64,000 bases of DNA from Crenothrix polyspora (GTDB lineage Bacteria > Pseudomonadota > Gammaproteobacteria > Methylococcales > Methylomonadaceae), in the NCBI GenBank assembly GCA_945877505.1, contig CAMDWT010000002.1:1-64000 (forward strand). The letters run 5' to 3'. The notes under the pieces were generated by a model. The model made no database searches. It was not told the origin of the DNA and worked only from the letters and a program-made list of their open reading frames with translations. A program made the translations under genes and the position numbers. Below, one piece after another: positions 19,330-61,389 of the stretch (the stretch's first letter is position 1; every line of letters starts with the position of its first letter).

Positions 19330-19357
19330 TTGACATTATCAGATTATTTTGTATATT
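19330..19357 (+). promoter_or_regulatory. Candidate sigma-70 promoter for hipBA
   Basis: TTGACA-N16-TATATT; -10 ends about 9 nt before the likely ATG (19367). Confidence 0.45.
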
Positions 19358-19366
19358 CTATGTTAC

Positions 19367-19663
19367 ATGACAAGCAAAAATCACATCATATATCCTTCTG
19401 AAAAGAAAATACTAACCGACTTTGGCGAAAGGCTAAAGCTTGCCCGTTTGCGCCGTGGAATCTCAGCAGAGATACTGGCACATCGATCATCTATTTCCAG
19501 AATGACGCTTCATCGTGCGGAGCAAGGCTCTCCGGCTGTTTCTATGGGGACCTATTTAAGAATACTTGCAGCACTTCATTTAACGGATGATATTAATTTA
19601 TTGGCGAAAGATGATAAGTTGGGGCGCAGACTGCAAGATCTTGAGTTGATCAAAAAAAGGTGA
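19367..19663 (+). CDS. hipB: HipB-like XRE-family antitoxin
   Basis: HTH: LARLRRGISAEILAHRSSISRMTLHRAEQGSPAVSMGTYLRILAAL; the ORF track start at 19349 is TTG, while ATG 19367 (MTSKNH) is more likely. Confidence 0.85.
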   Translation: MTSKNHIIYPSEKKILTDFGERLKLARLRRGISAEILAHRSSISRMTLHRAEQGSPAVSMGTYLRILAALHLTDDINLLAKDDKLGRRLQDLELIKKR

Positions 19664-19666
19664 GTC

Positions 19667-20968
19667 ATGAGCAGCAATAGGTTAGAGGTCTGGATAGACG
19701 CTGATTTTATAGGTGAAATCCTTAAGATTGGAACGCTTGCTAATAACGAGGGTAGCATTCGCTTTAACTATGATCCTAAATGGCTTAAGCATCCGCAGTG
19801 TTTCAATATCGATCCTGATATTTATCATGACAATTCGGTATCTTATCCAGATCCAGTTCTAGGTAATTTTGGTATTTTTATGGACTCATCTCCTGATAGG
19901 TGGGGGCAGACGCTTATGAAGCGCCGCGAAGCACTAGAAGCAAAAGATCAAAATCGCAAACCAAAAAACCTCTACGCTTGGGACTTTTTGGTTGGCGTTC
20001 AGGATGTAACGAGGCAAGGCGCACTTCGCTTTAAGTTGGAAGACACAGATGTTTTTTTAAGTGACCACAAATTATCTGCGCCACCACTCACAATGCTCAA
20101 AGAGCTTGAATTCATTGCAAAGGAGTTATCAAATAAACGTATTGATGATTTAAATGCATTAAGACGATGGCTTAGCGTGTTAGTTGCGCCAGGAGCTTCT
20201 TTAGGTGGCGCTAGGCCAAAAGCAAACTTCACGGAAACTGATGGCTCCATCTGGATTGCTAAATTTCCCTCAAAAGATGATGAACGAGATATCGGTGCAT
20301 GGGAGGGCATTACCCATCAATTAGCTATTGCGGCAAAAATTAATGTTCCTCAAGCAAAAATCATTAGATTGAATGGCGAGCACCACACTTTTTGCGTCAA
20401 GCGATTTGATCGTCATGAAAACAAAAGAGTTTTCTATGCGTCCGCCATGACATTGCTTAAAAAATCAGAAAGCGAAGGATCAAGTTATCTTGATATTGCT
20501 CAATGCTTAATGACAGGAAGATCAAATTCATCGATTGAGCCTAACCTCGAACAATTATTTAGGCGTGTGGTATTTAATGTTGCTGTAGGCAATAAGGATG
20601 ATCATTTACGTAATCATGGCTTCATATTATCCGAATCTGGCTGGCGGCTTTCACCTGCATTTGATATTAATCCGAATATTGACAAGGCTGAACATGTCCT
20701 TAATATCGATGATTCTGACAATCGCCCAAACATGGATACTGTAATGGCCACCTCATCAATGTATGAACTAGCGCCAGCAAAGGCAGAAAATATTATTGAT
20801 GAAATTATCAGTGTTGTTAAGGATTGGCGAATTGTAGCTAAAAGAATTGGTGTTTCAAATGCTGATATTGAGTTGATGGCATCAGCATTTTTGCAACATG
20901 TCCAAGCTAAGCCAATCATTCATGCTGATTATGAATATTCTGTCCGAACTTTAACACCTAAAACCTAA
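19667..20968 (+). CDS. hipA: HipA-like serine/threonine kinase toxin
   Basis: PDRWGQTLMKRRE, GASLGGARPKANF, FCVKRFDRH, NVAVGNKDDHLRNHGFI, DINP motifs. Confidence 0.93.
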   Translation: MSSNRLEVWIDADFIGEILKIGTLANNEGSIRFNYDPKWLKHPQCFNIDPDIYHDNSVSYPDPVLGNFGIFMDSSPDRWGQTLMKRREALEAKDQNRKPKNLYAWDFLVGVQDVTRQGALRFKLEDTDVFLSDHKLSAPPLTMLKELEFIAKELSNKRIDDLNALRRWLSVLVAPGASLGGARPKANFTETDGSIWIAKFPSKDDERDIGAWEGITHQLAIAAKINVPQAKIIRLNGEHHTFCVKRFDRHENKRVFYASAMTLLKKSESEGSSYLDIAQCLMTGRSNSSIEPNLEQLFRRVVFNVAVGNKDDHLRNHGFILSESGWRLSPAFDINPNIDKAEHVLNIDDSDNRPNMDTVMATSSMYELAPAKAENIIDEIISVVKDWRIVAKRIGVSNADIELMASAFLQHVQAKPIIHADYEYSVRTLTPKT

Positions 20969-21600: not shown

Positions 21601-21922
21601 TACAAGCACTGTTTAGTCTCTTCTAAGTCCTTTAAAACTTCCCTTCCTTTGCCAGGCTTTAGTTGCCTTGAGCGCAACTAAAGCCATGACAGTCAGTTTT
21701 TTTCATTATAGTGGCGCACCTATAAGAGTCTTGTACAAGGTTTGTATAGGTTTAGCTAGGTTCTTTGTGCTGATACAATAATTTAAATAAGATAAATAAT
21801 TACAATAAGTTGTGATTATTTATTGTGCCTTTACATCATTTCCCCCGCTTTTTTATAGCTGAAATAAGCTAACGATGATTTCAACTTATCTTTATTTTGT
21901 TCATGTTTTGTTAAACTATACT

Positions 21923-21951
21923 TTGACAAAATTAAAAGCAATTGATACTCT
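21923..21951 (+). promoter_or_regulatory. Candidate sigma-70 promoter upstream of the RpoD-like gene
   Basis: TTGACA-N17-TACTCT. Confidence 0.35.
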
Positions 21952-22144: not shown

Positions 22145-23524
22145 ATGGCTTATTTAAATACACAGTTGTCAAAGCAAGACTTAATGGTTGTTGATAAAGC
22201 GACTGTTAGTGTTGAGTCGTCAATACAAAATGATACGGTAACTGAAAATTATGTGGAAAACAGCAATTTCCATATAGCTAGTAAATTAAAAATTGAGAAA
22301 AGTAAGCTTATAAACGCACTTTCTCAATTTCCAATGACGGCATTATGGCTTTTAAATCAATATGAACAACGCACAGATATCGTTGAGCAAGATGAAGATT
22401 TAACGGTAGAGGCAGAATTAACAACCGACTTAAAAGAGATAAAAAAATATTTTTATAGCTTATCGGGAAATTCGCTAACAGATAATAGTTATGCCGCTGA
22501 AAAGCAAGATCTAACTACAGCTTTACAATTATTTGCATTTACTTTCAATGACTTGGTTGGGTTAGTAGACATGTTTGTTTTTGCCTACAAGTTTAGGGGA
22601 TTGTGTTATCAGTCCGGTAGTCAAAGTAATAAAAAAGAGTCTGATCTAATGCTTAAAAGATTAGAAGGAGATGCACGTCGCAGCAAAAACAAAGCCTCCG
22701 TTTGGTCAGAAATATTTCTCAGCTATGATGAGCAGTTCCTCTTTCTATCGAGTAGCGATATGCATAAATATTTTACTGAAATTGTTTTTTCAGAGAATAG
22801 CTGGTTGAAATTACGACAACAGTTAGCAACCGCTAACTCACGATTAGTCTTATTTATAGCAAATCAATATAAAGGTGGCTTCTTAGATTTTGATGATCTT
22901 GTTCAAGAAGGTCAGACGGGTTTGTTAAAGGCAGTTGATAGATATGACTATCGTTTAGGATTTCAGTTTTCCACTTACGCAGGCTATTGGATTAGACAAG
23001 CTATTTCTAGGTCTTTGTCACGCTGTGAGAGAGTCGTAAGAGTTCCTTGTGGGCAAGTTGCTAACATGAATAAAGTCTTTAGAGTTAAAGATCAATTTAT
23101 TGCGCAAAAAGGCAGAGAGCCAAGCTTAAAAGAATTGGCAGAGCAAGTGAAACTGTCGCCTGAAGAAATAACATCTATTTTCGCAATTTCCCAAACAGCA
23201 ATATCTCTTGAGGGTACGGAAGAGGAAGGTGAAGTTTTATTTTCACCCATTGATTATCTTGAGCAAGAGGTCTTTGTCGATTCGTTTAAGAAAATATCTA
23301 AAATGGATTTGGATTCTCTGATAGGGAAGGCAATTAAAGGGCTAAATCCTCGAGAAGCAAAAGTCATTAGCTGTCATTTTGGTGTTGAAGTTGAAAATAG
23401 TATGACCTTACAAGAGATTGGTGCTGAGCTTAATTTAACTAGGGAACGCGTTAGGCAAATTCAGGTAATGGCCCTGAATAAAATTCGCCGAAGTTTTGGA
23501 GATCAACTAGTCGCCTTTTTATAA
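22145..23524 (+). CDS. RpoD-like sigma-70 factor (divergent paralog)
   Basis: Regions 2-4: ANSRLVLFIANQYKGGFLDFDDLVQEGQTGLLKAVDRYDYRLGFQFSTYAGYWIRQAISRSL ... NLTRERVRQIQVMALNKIRR; divergent N-terminal half that aligns by eye with the RpoD non-conserved region. Confidence 0.9.
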   Translation: MAYLNTQLSKQDLMVVDKATVSVESSIQNDTVTENYVENSNFHIASKLKIEKSKLINALSQFPMTALWLLNQYEQRTDIVEQDEDLTVEAELTTDLKEIKKYFYSLSGNSLTDNSYAAEKQDLTTALQLFAFTFNDLVGLVDMFVFAYKFRGLCYQSGSQSNKKESDLMLKRLEGDARRSKNKASVWSEIFLSYDEQFLFLSSSDMHKYFTEIVFSENSWLKLRQQLATANSRLVLFIANQYKGGFLDFDDLVQEGQTGLLKAVDRYDYRLGFQFSTYAGYWIRQAISRSLSRCERVVRVPCGQVANMNKVFRVKDQFIAQKGREPSLKELAEQVKLSPEEITSIFAISQTAISLEGTEEEGEVLFSPIDYLEQEVFVDSFKKISKMDLDSLIGKAIKGLNPREAKVISCHFGVEVENSMTLQEIGAELNLTRERVRQIQVMALNKIRRSFGDQLVAFL

Positions 23525-23693
23525 TATACAAACGCTATAAAGCAAGTTACTATTTAAATCCTGCTAAAAAGGTAGGAAATTTTTAGTTATTTAAAACTGA
23601 TGTAAAAGTGACGTGGCAACATCAAGTTCAGGATGCAGCTGTAGTTAACCGTAACGCTACATTGATCTTTTTAAAAGGTCAGGAGATTAGACC

Positions 23694-25613
23694 ATGAAAA
23701 AACATATACTAAACGCCCTACTCTGGAGTGTTGTATTGGCCGGGGCATTTCTTATTTACAATCGTGTAAATACCACGCCAGCCATAGACGAATCACTCGC
23801 TTATTCTGAATTTATTGTAAAAGTTAAGAATAAGTTGGTTGATCGAGTAGAAATGACAGGGCAAACAATTAAGCTGCGGACAGCTGATGGTCAAAACTAC
23901 GAAACGTACAATCCAAATGATCCACATTTAATTGATGATCTATTAAGCGCGGGCGTTCAAGTTAGAACTAAGCCACCTGCTCAACAATCACTTTTTATGC
24001 AGATGTTTATCTCATGGTTTCCTATGTTGCTTTTGATCGCTGTATGGATCATTTACATGCGTAAAACACAAGGTGCAGGCATGGGAGGGAATGCCTTTGG
24101 TAAAAGCAAGGCTAAATTACTTGAAGAAGATAAGTTAACGGCTACTTTTGCCGATGTGGCTGGCTGTGAAGAAGCTAAGGAAGAAGTTACTGAGCTGGTT
24201 GATTTTTTGGCAGATCCACAAAAATTCCAAAAATTGGGTGGTCAAATTCCCCGTGGTATTTTGATGGTGGGGCCTCCAGGAACCGGTAAAACATTGATTG
24301 CAAGAGCCATTGCAGGTGAAGCAGGTGTTAAGTTCTTTACGGTGTCTGGCTCTGATTTTGTAGAAATGTTTGTTGGGGTGGGCGCATCAAGAGTTAGAGA
24401 TATGTTTGCTCAAGCTAAAGAACATGCCCCCTGTATTATTTTTATTGATGAGATTGACGCGGTGGGTCGCCAAAGAGGCGGTGCTGGCATGGGTGGTGGT
24501 AATGATGAACGTGAACAAACACTTAACCAGTTGCTGGTTGAAATGGATGGGTTTACAGGGAACGAAGGCGTCATCGTCATTGCAGCAACCAATCGTGCAG
24601 ACGTCCTCGATAAAGCGTTATTAAGACCGGGTAGATTTGACCGTCAAGTTAATGTGGGTTTGCCTGATGTAAGAGGGCGAGAACAGATTTTGAATGTACA
24701 TATCAAAAAAGTACCTGCAGCTGAAGATGTTAATTTAAAAGATATTGCACGAGGTACGCCTGGCTTTTCCGGCGCAGAGTTGGCAAATGTAGTAAACGAA
24801 GCCGCCTTATTTGCTGCAAGATCGAATAAAGTGCAAGTGAATATGAGCGATCTTGAGAAAGCAAAAGACAAGATACTAATGGGTGCTGAGAAACACACCA
24901 TGGTTATGACTGAAGATGACAAACTATTAACAGCCTATCATGAGGCTGGACATTGTATTGTTGGACAATCTTCACCTGATCATGATCCAGTGTACAAGGT
25001 TAGCATCATGCCACGAGGTAGAGCGTTAGGTATAACGATGTTTTTACCTGAAAGAGATCAATACAGTGCCAGCAAACGTAAGTTGGACAGCCAAATCTCC
25101 AGTTTATTTGGTGGAAGAATTGCTGAGTTAATGATTTATGGTGGTGACCGAGTAACAACCGGCGCATCAAATGATATCGAACGTGCGACAGAATTGGCTC
25201 GTAACATGGTGACTCGTTGGGGTTTTTCTGAAAAATTGGGACCTTTGGTCTATGGTGAAGAAGGTGGACAACCTTTCATGGGCTATCCTGGTTCACAAGG
25301 CAGTAAAGTTTCGGGGACGGTTGCCCAACAAATAGACGAAGAAATTCGTGCGGTGATTGATAGTAATTATCAGAAAGCAGAAACGATATTGCAGGAAAAT
25401 ATCAGTATTCTTCATAAAATGGCTGATGCATTAATGAAATGGGAAACCATCGATAAAGATCAAATTGATGATTTAATGGCGGGTAATGAGCCTCGTCCAC
25501 CCAAAGAAGATGCTGAGCCCGTTAAGACAGATTATTTAAAGCAGGATAAAGTTGACATAAGTAAACCAAATAAAACTAATATCAACAAAAACAAACCTGC
25601 CGGACAAGTTTGA
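23694..25613 (+). CDS. ftsH: ATP-dependent zinc metalloprotease FtsH
   Basis: [32 protein letters not shown]; 2 N-terminal TMs. Confidence 0.98.
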
Positions 25614-25627
25614 GGTGCGCTCATTTA

Positions 25628-25656
25628 GGGGGAGGGTATCCTCCCCCTTTTTTTTG
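25628..25656 (+). terminator. Rho-independent terminator after ftsH
   Basis: gggggagg-gtat-cctccccc followed by T8. Confidence 0.92.
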
Positions 25657-54429: not shown

Positions 54430-54456
54430 TTAGCACTCTTATTTAGAGAGTGCTAG
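54430..54456. promoter_or_regulatory. CIRCE operator (HrcA binding site) upstream of rpoH
   Basis: TTAGCACTC-TTATTTAGA-GAGTGCTAG: 17 of 18 arm positions match the consensus TTAGCACTC-N9-GAGTGCTAA with exact N9 spacing; 36 bp before the rpoH ATG. Confidence 0.88.
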
Positions 54457-54491
54457 AATTAATACAAAGTTTATTTCTAAGGAGATACCAC

Positions 54492-55349
54492 ATGAGTAAC
54501 GCTTTAGCTTTACCGGTAAATTTATCAGTTGGAACCTTTGATGCCTATTTAAATTTGGTTCGGCAAATGCCCAGATTAACTTCTGAACAGGAGCGCGAAT
54601 TAACCTTGAGATTTAAAGACGAAGGTGATTTAGAGGCGGCAAGAGAGTTGGTTATGACCAATTTACGTTTTGTTGTTCATGTTGCTAGAGGTTATAGCGG
54701 CTATGGTCTTTCTATGCCTGATATTATTCAAGAAGGTAATATTGGCCTTATGAAGGCTGTTAAACGTTTTGATCCTGATGTTGGTGTGCGCTTAGTTTCT
54801 TTTGCCGTGCATTGGATAAAAGCAGAAATTCACGAGTATGTGATAAAAAATTGGGGAATTGTAAAGGTTGCAACGACTAAGGCGCAGCGCAAACTTTTCT
54901 TTAATTTACGTAAATCTAAGAAAAACATTGGTTGGTTGTCGAATGACGAAGCCATGGCCATTGCAGCAGATTTAAATGTCGAGCTAAGTGATGTCTACGA
55001 AATGGAAAAACGTCTCGGTAGTCAAGATATGTCTTTTGATATGCCTGTCGATGAGTCCACGGAAGAAAGTGGCACCTATCCAGCAAATTATCTTCATCAA
55101 CACGGAACTGATCCCTCAATTTTGCTTGAAAATGCTGATTGGGAAGGACATGGACACGATTTATTGTCAGAAGCAATGGCGGAGTTAGATGCGCGCAGTT
55201 TTGATATTCTTTCAAGTCGTTGGTTGAGTGAGAAAAAAGCCACTTTGCATGAACTTGCAGATCGGTACAATGTCTCTGCTGAGAGAATTAGGCAGTTAGA
55301 GCAAAATGCTATGAAAAAAATCAAAGCTGCCGTTGTTATGGCAGCCTAA
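54492..55349 (+). CDS. rpoH: RNA polymerase sigma-32 factor RpoH
   Basis: DLVLxN-type region 2 (LRFVVHVARGYSGYGLSMPDIIQEGNIGLMKAVKRFDPDVGVRLVSFAVHWIKAEIHEYVIKNWGIVKVATTKAQRKLFFNLRKSKK, the RpoH box); ATG 54492 preceded by AAGGAG; the track start 54450 lies inside the CIRCE element. Confidence 0.97.
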   Translation: MSNALALPVNLSVGTFDAYLNLVRQMPRLTSEQERELTLRFKDEGDLEAARELVMTNLRFVVHVARGYSGYGLSMPDIIQEGNIGLMKAVKRFDPDVGVRLVSFAVHWIKAEIHEYVIKNWGIVKVATTKAQRKLFFNLRKSKKNIGWLSNDEAMAIAADLNVELSDVYEMEKRLGSQDMSFDMPVDESTEESGTYPANYLHQHGTDPSILLENADWEGHGHDLLSEAMAELDARSFDILSSRWLSEKKATLHELADRYNVSAERIRQLEQNAMKKIKAAVVMAA

Positions 55350-59779: not shown

Positions 59780-60373
59780 ATGGCTATTAATTTGCAAAAA
59801 GGACAAAAAATCTCGTTATCGAAAGAATCGGGTGGTTCCTTAAGTAAAGTTGTTATGGGTTTGGGCTGGGATGCAAAAAAAAGCAGCGTAGGATTATTGA
59901 AAGGGATGTTTGGCGGAGGTAATACTAGCGCTATCGATTTAGATGCGTCTTGCGTTTTATTTAATGAACAAAATGCGGTGGTTGATACGGTATATTTTGG
60001 GCAATTAAAGAGCCGTGATGGGAGTATTCTGCATACAGGTGACAATCGTACTGGCGAAGGTGACGGTGATGACGAGCAGATTATTGTTGATTTAGATAAA
60101 ATCCCCTTAACGGTTAAATCATTGGTTTTTACAGTGAGTTCTTATACCGGGCAAACGTTTGATACAGTTGATAATGCGTATTGTCGCATTGTTGATAACA
60201 GCAACAATAATGAAGTAGCCCGTTACACCTTAAGTGCGCAAGGCTCACACACGGCTCAAATTATGGCTAAATTATATCGTCATAATGGTGAGTGGAAAAT
60301 GCATGCCATTGGTGAAAATGGTACAGGTAGAACCATTGCTGATATCTTGCCGCAAATTGTTATTCATTTGTAA
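59780..60373 (+). CDS. TerD-family protein
   Basis: VVMGLGWDAKKS...AIDLDASCVLF; DNRTGEGDGDDEQI. Confidence 0.95.
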   Translation: MAINLQKGQKISLSKESGGSLSKVVMGLGWDAKKSSVGLLKGMFGGGNTSAIDLDASCVLFNEQNAVVDTVYFGQLKSRDGSILHTGDNRTGEGDGDDEQIIVDLDKIPLTVKSLVFTVSSYTGQTFDTVDNAYCRIVDNSNNNEVARYTLSAQGSHTAQIMAKLYRHNGEWKMHAIGENGTGRTIADILPQIVIHL

Positions 60374-61389
60374 TGAGAATATGGTTTAACAAAACATTTT
60401 CAACTATAAGCGCTGTTTTTAGAGATCTTCGCCAATCAACGTCTGATGGCGAAGTCACCCTGATTTGCACCCACTCCCACCAAGCGGCATCCGCTTTCTT
60501 AGCCGCTGATGAAAGCTATCTTGAGCCCGATTTAATGGGCATGGCTTATGTGGAATGGTGCGTAGATTTTTGTCGGCAGCATCAAATTAATTTATTTTGG
60601 CCAGGTAAGGAAGCGGCCTTGATCAGTAAATTTCATATGTTGTTTCAGGCTATTGGTGTAGAAGTCTTGTCGGTTGCAGAATATCAAACATTGATGTTAT
60701 TGCATGATAAAGCACTTTTTTATACTGATTTGAGTCCAGATGTCGCCAAAGCAATGGATTTTATCGCCGTTAATAATGCCGATGACTTTGATAGTGCTAT
60801 CGAACAATTATCAAAAAAGCATCAGAAGTTGTGTGTTAAGCCAGCGGTATCCGTTTTTGGTTTGGGATTTCGGGTTCTGGACACTCAGCGTGATAGCATC
60901 ACCCAATTACTTAAAGGTGTTGAGTATCAAATTCCTTTACAAGAATTAAGGCGTGGCATGAATAATACCCCGCAATTTGAAACTTTATTAGTCATGGAGC
61001 ATTTGGGTGGCCCTGAATGGAGTGTTGATTGTGCAGGCCAAAAAGGTGAGTTACTGTGTGCGGTGCAGCGTAAAAAATCCCAATTAGCCGGTTATGGTCA
61101 AACCATAGATAACAATATCGCTTTAGAAGACATGGTGACTCGGTTAACCAAGCATTACAAATTAAACGGTTTATATAATATTCAATTTAAAGAGGGTGCT
61201 AATGGACCACGTTTATTAGAAATTAATCCAAGACCTTCGGGCGGTTTTGGTATGGCTTGTTTGTCGGGTGCCAATTTGGCGTACATTGCCTTGCAAAGTA
61301 TTAAAGGTGAAACCTTCCAAGTACCTACTATCAATTATGGCCTTAGGGTCGCTGAAGTCAATACGCCGGTTGTTTTGAATGGAATGTGA
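60373..61389 (+). CDS. ATP-grasp protein of the Ter-associated type
   Basis: Overlaps terD by one base; KLCVKPAVSVFGLGFRVL...LEINPRPSGGFGMACLSGAN. Confidence 0.88.
   Translation: MRIWFNKTFSTISAVFRDLRQSTSDGEVTLICTHSHQAASAFLAADESYLEPDLMGMAYVEWCVDFCRQHQINLFWPGKEAALISKFHMLFQAIGVEVLSVAEYQTLMLLHDKALFYTDLSPDVAKAMDFIAVNNADDFDSAIEQLSKKHQKLCVKPAVSVFGLGFRVLDTQRDSITQLLKGVEYQIPLQELRRGMNNTPQFETLLVMEHLGGPEWSVDCAGQKGELLCAVQRKKSQLAGYGQTIDNNIALEDMVTRLTKHYKLNGLYNIQFKEGANGPRLLEINPRPSGGFGMACLSGANLAYIALQSIKGETFQVPTINYGLRVAEVNTPVVLNGM

Follow-up and report, generated by a model that had tools for sequence, protein, structure and literature searches.

CarH and LitR are MerR-type repressors that sense light through adenosylcobalamin, and the light-induced sigma factors LitS of Streptomyces and CarQ of Myxococcus are of the ECF type. 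To our knowledge, the CarH/LitR circuits described so far drive ECF sigma factors or pigment genes. In Escherichia coli, the protease FtsH degrades the sigma factor RpoH; we know of no case in which a second FtsH is linked to a sigma gene or to hflKC. CarH operators consist of 11-bp units, nnnnTnnACAn, arranged in tandem, and the -35 box is often part of them (PMC9304148); the motifs GxxW, EH, GxxH, and GxxxP have been reported as the signature of light-responsive cobalamin domains (PMC11796333). The class II LitR proteins PplR1 and PmlR2 of Pseudomonas use a TGTACA-N12-TGTACA site at the sigma70 -35 element of light-induced genes (PMC9758184). An extra FtsH beside the housekeeping copy, PaFtsH2, is described for Pseudomonas aeruginosa clone C (PMC10850787). 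Here we describe a locus of the order Methylococcales in which a putative CarH-type site at the promoter of an RpoD-type sigma gene suggests a previously undescribed light-stress switch.

The 64,000-nucleotide stretch that was analyzed (the window) comes from a 2.46-Mb Methylobacter-like metagenome-assembled genome (MAG) of this order, whose contigs are fragmentary. On its forward strand, positions 22145 to 23524 hold an intact open reading frame with an ATG start for a 459-residue, group-2-like sigma factor of the RpoD type. Pfam matches to Sigma70_r2, r3, and r4 all exceed their cut-offs, and RpoD-like regions 2-4 are the sequence mark of a group 2 sigma factor, a class defined as well by being dispensable for growth. 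The top curated NCBIfam families were RpoD-type models, each far short of its cut-off, and the RpoS models also scored under theirs; since every curated model fell below its cut-off, no existing equivalog fits the protein. The best NCBIfam score belonged to MzaA, the RpoD-like sigma factor of the MZA defense system, through the common sigma regions; at 236.8 bits against a cut-off of 800, a defense link was rejected. A canonical 613-residue rpoD lies on contig C25 of the source genome, rpoS and rpoE are also encoded outside the window, and rpoH is found in the window at 54450 to 55349. With its own RpoD, RpoS, RpoE, and RpoH in the genome, the protein is therefore an additional factor. The first-pass annotation had called the gene a divergent, non-housekeeping RpoD paralog, provided that a canonical rpoD lay elsewhere in the genome; the C25 gene bears this out, and the sequences quoted in that annotation were correct.

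Two other origins for the gene were considered and rejected. A second sigma copy, 70% identical to that of the window, lies on the 5.9-kb contig C104 of the same assembly, and this contig matches the genome of another species at 99.4% identity over 5.5 kb, so the copy is probably contamination rather than a true duplication. Plasmid and phage collections held no close relative; the nearest matches, all below 60% identity, resemble ordinary RpoD-like sigma factors and do not support a mobile origin. Farther upstream, between arfB and a cupin gene, a HipB/HipA-like pair (104 and 433 residues, named by sequence appearance only; 19349 to 20968) looks like a recent insertion, because in close relatives arfB lies near the sigma gene and the pair is missing.

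Related sigma loci numbered 42 in a species-level genome collection, nearly all of them in genomes named as methanotrophs; the cultured Methylobacter psychrophilus Z-0021 also has the locus. An order-wide search of 301 genomes placed the core family in many genera of one family, and more divergent sigma factors (about 37 to 45% over regions 2-4), likewise upstream of ftsH, in other genera and families. In a tree built on regions 2-4, the ftsH-linked sigma factors, core and divergent alike, formed one clade sister to RpoD (support 93) and separate from RpoS; as regards RpoS, this placement agrees with the first-pass annotation. RpoH was left out of this final tree because its long branch had attached inside the divergent sigma factors. 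A class-wide draw of 370 gammaproteobacterial genomes included 365 from outside Methylococcales; among the matches listed for these, only RpoD-sized proteins and no member of the clade were seen. A 520-residue RpoD-like protein with a long branch, encoded in a MAG of the same genus (contig C590 of G030), is distinct from this family. Searches of an open literature library for methanotroph sigma factors, for light, and for FtsH listed no paper that, judging by title and abstract, dealt with this sigma-ftsH pair.

Alignment with RpoD located what the protein has kept and lost. It shares with RpoD/SigA (group 1, sigma70) regions 2, 3, and 4, part of region 1.2, and the non-conserved region (NCR), but, at 459 residues, it lacks region 1.1 and, of region 1.2, the first half (TTDPVRMYMREMG); the earlier reading of a missing region 1.1 and a retained NCR remnant was seen in the same alignment. 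RpoS is likewise a relative of RpoD that is without region 1.1 and coexists with a full rpoD, but it forms a clade of its own, is itself encoded in the source genome, and differs from the window sigma factor, which keeps an NCR-like domain. This helical domain, which corresponds to the latter half of region 1.2 together with the NCR, spans residues 41 to 215 (22265 to 22789) by alignment, AlphaFold2, and Foldseek; it is followed on the same strand by region 2 (residues 228 to 293, 22826 to 23023; PF04542), region 3 (residues 308 to 356, 23066 to 23212; PF04539), and region 4 (residues 396 to 448, 23330 to 23488; PF04545), with the -35 helix TRERVRQI intact in the alignment. The AlphaFold2 model, built from 36 relatives, had a mean pLDDT of 73; its first 36 residues are disordered, and residues 41 to 215 lie mostly at 70 to 96 with a low stretch at residues 78 to 86. 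Foldseek aligned nearly all of the model with PDB chains of sigma70, but TM-scores were only 0.3 to 0.4, and the way in which the model arranges its domains overall is therefore unreliable.

Upstream of the gene lies a conserved operator-promoter block. A putative CarH/LitR-like operator occupies forward-strand positions 21897 to 21929, where tandem 11-bp repeats TTGTTCATGTT TTGTTAAACTA are followed by TACTTTGACAA, which contains the -35 box TTGACA (21923 to 21928); after a 17-bp spacing comes a putative -10 box, TACTCT (21946 to 21951), which reads TACATT in most relatives. Both boxes were assigned from sequence and conservation. Throughout Methylobacter-type genomes, the whole block (21897 to 21951 in the window) reads TTGTTCATGTT TTGTTAAACTA TACTTTGACA-N17-TAnnnT, that is, tandem 11-bp repeats of the form TTGTnCAnGTT abutting TTGACA-N17-TAnnnT, and many positions are more than 90% conserved in 29 aligned upstream regions. 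Searched as two 11-bp repeats plus TTGAC, the pattern was found at 46 of 66 sigma loci, which span many genera (47 loci with a looser pattern), and never in 20 rounds of dinucleotide shuffling; these exact counts, like those for whole genomes below, are descriptive, because pattern and loci were chosen after the sigma promoter had been seen. Even the loose pattern was missing from 19 of the 66 loci, at least four of which carry visible near-variants, while several divergent loci look different; the G040 and G037 loci gave no recognizable match. With two 11-bp repeats and TTGACA, the site resembles CarH operators in part: the TnnACA core is perfect at sites of some relatives, but the promoter of the window sigma gene departs from the CarH consensus in its cores (TGTTCA and TGTTAA) and in a spacing to TTGACA of 14 bp, not 11. 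Like the class II LitR sites of Pseudomonas, it is a TGTACA-type site overlapping a sigma70 -35 element, but it has an 11-bp tandem geometry in place of the N12 spacing.

The same operator recurs at other promoters. Across 18 whole genomes, allowing three mismatches, the pattern gave 68 matches against 13 for the reversed pattern; in the source genome, the figures were 6 and 0. Perfect matches in the source genome lie at the sigma gene, at the contaminant C104 copy, at a MerR/B12-binding protein gene on C25, and at position 8211 of contig C6. Three kinds of place recur: the sigma gene, the carH-like gene, and a promoter between a divergent small membrane protein gene and yfcH. The operator's reappearance at the carH-like gene and at the C6 operon owes nothing to how the pattern was chosen. 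The carH-like site, read in three genomes, lies on C25 about 40 bp 5' of the start of the gene. The C6 site sits between a small membrane protein gene with a lipocalin gene on one side and, divergent from them, a yfcH/ThyD-type SDR gene with a MauG-type di-heme peroxidase gene 3' of it on the other. In all seven genomes read, this third site lay between the membrane protein and SDR genes, in some of them with perfect TGTACA cores; the lipocalin gene followed in four (L202, L203, L205, and L210), whereas the stretches that were read of L204, L206, and L207 showed none. The small membrane protein, of about 142 residues (2594 to 3022 in L202, with its relatives), has no family above cut-off. Within the window, a two-mismatch operator-like match at 60380 to 60403, conserved in several relatives, overlaps the beginning of the gene at 60373, and its conservation probably reflects coding constraint.

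In other genera, these genes lie together. A CarH-like gene lies beside or divergent from sigma-ftsH at 15 loci, the small membrane protein gene lies after ftsH, and a yfcH-type SDR gene adjoins the pair; in Methylobacter, the carH-like gene is not adjacent to the sigma gene. Sharing of the operator in Methylobacter and linkage of the genes elsewhere therefore indicate the same gene set. In genus g29, a BLUF photoreceptor gene and a carotenoid-type oxidase gene lie beside the pair in two genomes, and a photolyase gene in one of them. The only photolyase gene found in the source genome, on contig C7, had no operator within the 7.5 kb read.

The C25 regulator is a 324-residue protein with a MerR helix-turn-helix and B12-binding domains, and its best PDB matches are CarH structures. 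It scored 125.6 bits on the NCBIfam CarH equivalog, and CarH-like proteins as a group about 126 to 132 bits, against a cut-off of 400; given a score below that cut-off, we call the protein CarH-like only. Its cobalamin domain has all four of the light-signature motifs. The reading that we favor, with somewhat better than even confidence, is that a CarH-type repressor, probably relieved by light, governs an RpoD-derived sigma factor paired with a second FtsH. We regard as rather doubtful the alternative that the MerR/B12 regulator binds the operator without sensing light directly, being B12 independent in the manner of CarA or taking its signal from a partner sensor, with the sigma factor serving oxidative, oxygen, or cobalamin status. 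In its favor, a LOV protein partner supplies the light signal to class II LitR in Pseudomonas (PMC9758184), BLUF proteins adjoin the locus in g29, and a MauG-type peroxidase gene follows yfcH; on the other hand, the regulator carries the complete set of adenosylcobalamin light motifs, and the photolyase and BLUF neighbors point to light.

Downstream of the sigma gene, at 23694 to 25613 on the same strand, lies ftsH2, which encodes a second FtsH protease of 639 residues (TIGR01241, 831 bits against a cut-off of 600) followed by a strong intrinsic terminator (25627 to 25648, forward strand). The start of ftsH2 is 169 bp past the sigma gene, in agreement with the first-pass estimate of about 170 bp. 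That annotation had also placed the sigma gene where rlmE usually precedes ftsH; this part fell, and displacement of rlmE was rejected, as the window gene is the second ftsH and the housekeeping cluster greA...rlmE-ftsH-glmM is present on contig C8. FtsH2 is 67% identical to the C8 protein, and most other genomes of the order that were read have rlmE-ftsH with folP and/or glmM at their best-scoring ftsH. The gap between the two genes (23525 to 23693, about 170 nt) is conserved across Methylobacter and Crenothrix and holds two small forward-strand hairpins. One, a conserved hairpin 3' of the sigma gene (23559 to 23577), has no T run in most relatives and is possibly a weak terminator or processing site; the other, TGATC...GGTCA (23663 to 23681), lies at the edge of the ftsH2 Shine-Dalgarno sequence and shows some compensatory changes in an RNAalifold analysis of 24 leaders. 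An Rfam search of the sigma-ftsH2 locus gave no match.

Linkage to ftsH is established across the order: of 42 relatives, 41 have an ftsH gene 3' of the sigma gene, one of them with hflKC between the two, and the remaining locus is cut by a contig end. Some divergent genera have the order sigma-hflK-hflC-ftsH2; in the source genome, hflKC lies on contig C1, unlinked to the pair. PaFtsH2 is also an extra FtsH; the Methylococcales ftsH2 differs in that it accompanies a sigma gene and, in some genera, hflKC as well. One genome from another family of the order (G055) has a second ftsH with hflC and a gene for a 153-residue protein upstream and a MerR-type gene downstream.

This near-constant neighbor, joined in several genera by hflKC, fits a further alternative, in which a heat- or envelope-stress sigma factor controls ftsH2 (and hflKC) while FtsH2 in turn degrades the sigma factor, a dedicated loop like that of RpoH and FtsH, the MerR link being incidental. 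Almost all core sigma factors moreover end in a bare ...FL, whereas RpoD ends in an acidic tail. However, divergent members end in FLEPG or FLEPRDG, so that the bare tail is not a family feature and was rejected as a family-wide FtsH degron. The source genome already has a normal RpoH, and such a loop would leave the operator common to the carH-like gene and the yfcH operon unexplained. We consider this alternative unlikely.

Promoter recognition by the sigma factor has probably shifted somewhat while remaining sigma70-like, because the -35 helix is intact, changes in the -10 helix are few, and half of region 1.2 is lost. The contact residues of the -35 recognition helix (TRERxRQI) are identical to those of RpoD; the -10 helix retains most of its contacts but carries W433Y and T440S, and nearly all core members have R423L in the base-flipping pocket (E. 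coli sigma70 numbering). Of the altered promoter recognition proposed in the first-pass annotation, the few -10 substitutions stand and lend it weak support, while the intact -35 contacts and the mostly retained -10 contacts speak against it. No target promoter was identified, and inspection of the sigma-ftsH2 gap by eye found no sigma-specific motif. Those unchanged contacts would suit a mere copy of RpoD that has sigma70-like specificity, does little on its own, and persists through its linkage to ftsH2. We think this highly improbable, as the sigma factor has been conserved in many genera along with a constant neighbor and a promoter of its own that is likewise conserved, and the loss of region 1.1 and half of region 1.2 sets it apart from a plain copy.

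Under light-relieved CarH-type control, the circuit may be pictured as follows. An alternative sigma factor would have arisen from RpoD within Methylococcales. In the dark, the C25 CarH-like protein would occupy the repeats and silence the sigma gene, along with its own gene and the divergent small membrane protein/SDR operon. Light would release it from the repeats, and the sigma factor would then steer RNA polymerase toward a photo-oxidative-stress regulon. FtsH2, with an hflKC of its own in some genera, may provide membrane protein quality control for the same stress, and perhaps limits the sigma factor by proteolysis, as FtsH does RpoH in E. coli. Like CarH/LitR with LitS or CarQ, this arrangement links a light-type MerR/B12 repressor to a sigma gene, with a divergent repressor-sigma pair in many genera and a site at the -35 element; unlike the ECF factors LitS and CarQ, the Methylococcales sigma factor is of the RpoD type and tied to ftsH2. 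An order-wide methanotroph circuit, in which a CarH-type B12 photoreceptor represses an RpoD-derived, non-ECF sigma factor paired with and proteolytically controlled by its own FtsH2, with HflKC in some genera, is less likely than not, and we put it forward tentatively.

If the proposal is correct, the pairing of an RpoD-derived sigma factor with a dedicated FtsH would represent a novel arrangement, and the operator would predict members of the regulon. It would also point to a concrete regulator by which methane oxidizers living in illuminated lake water may deal with light.
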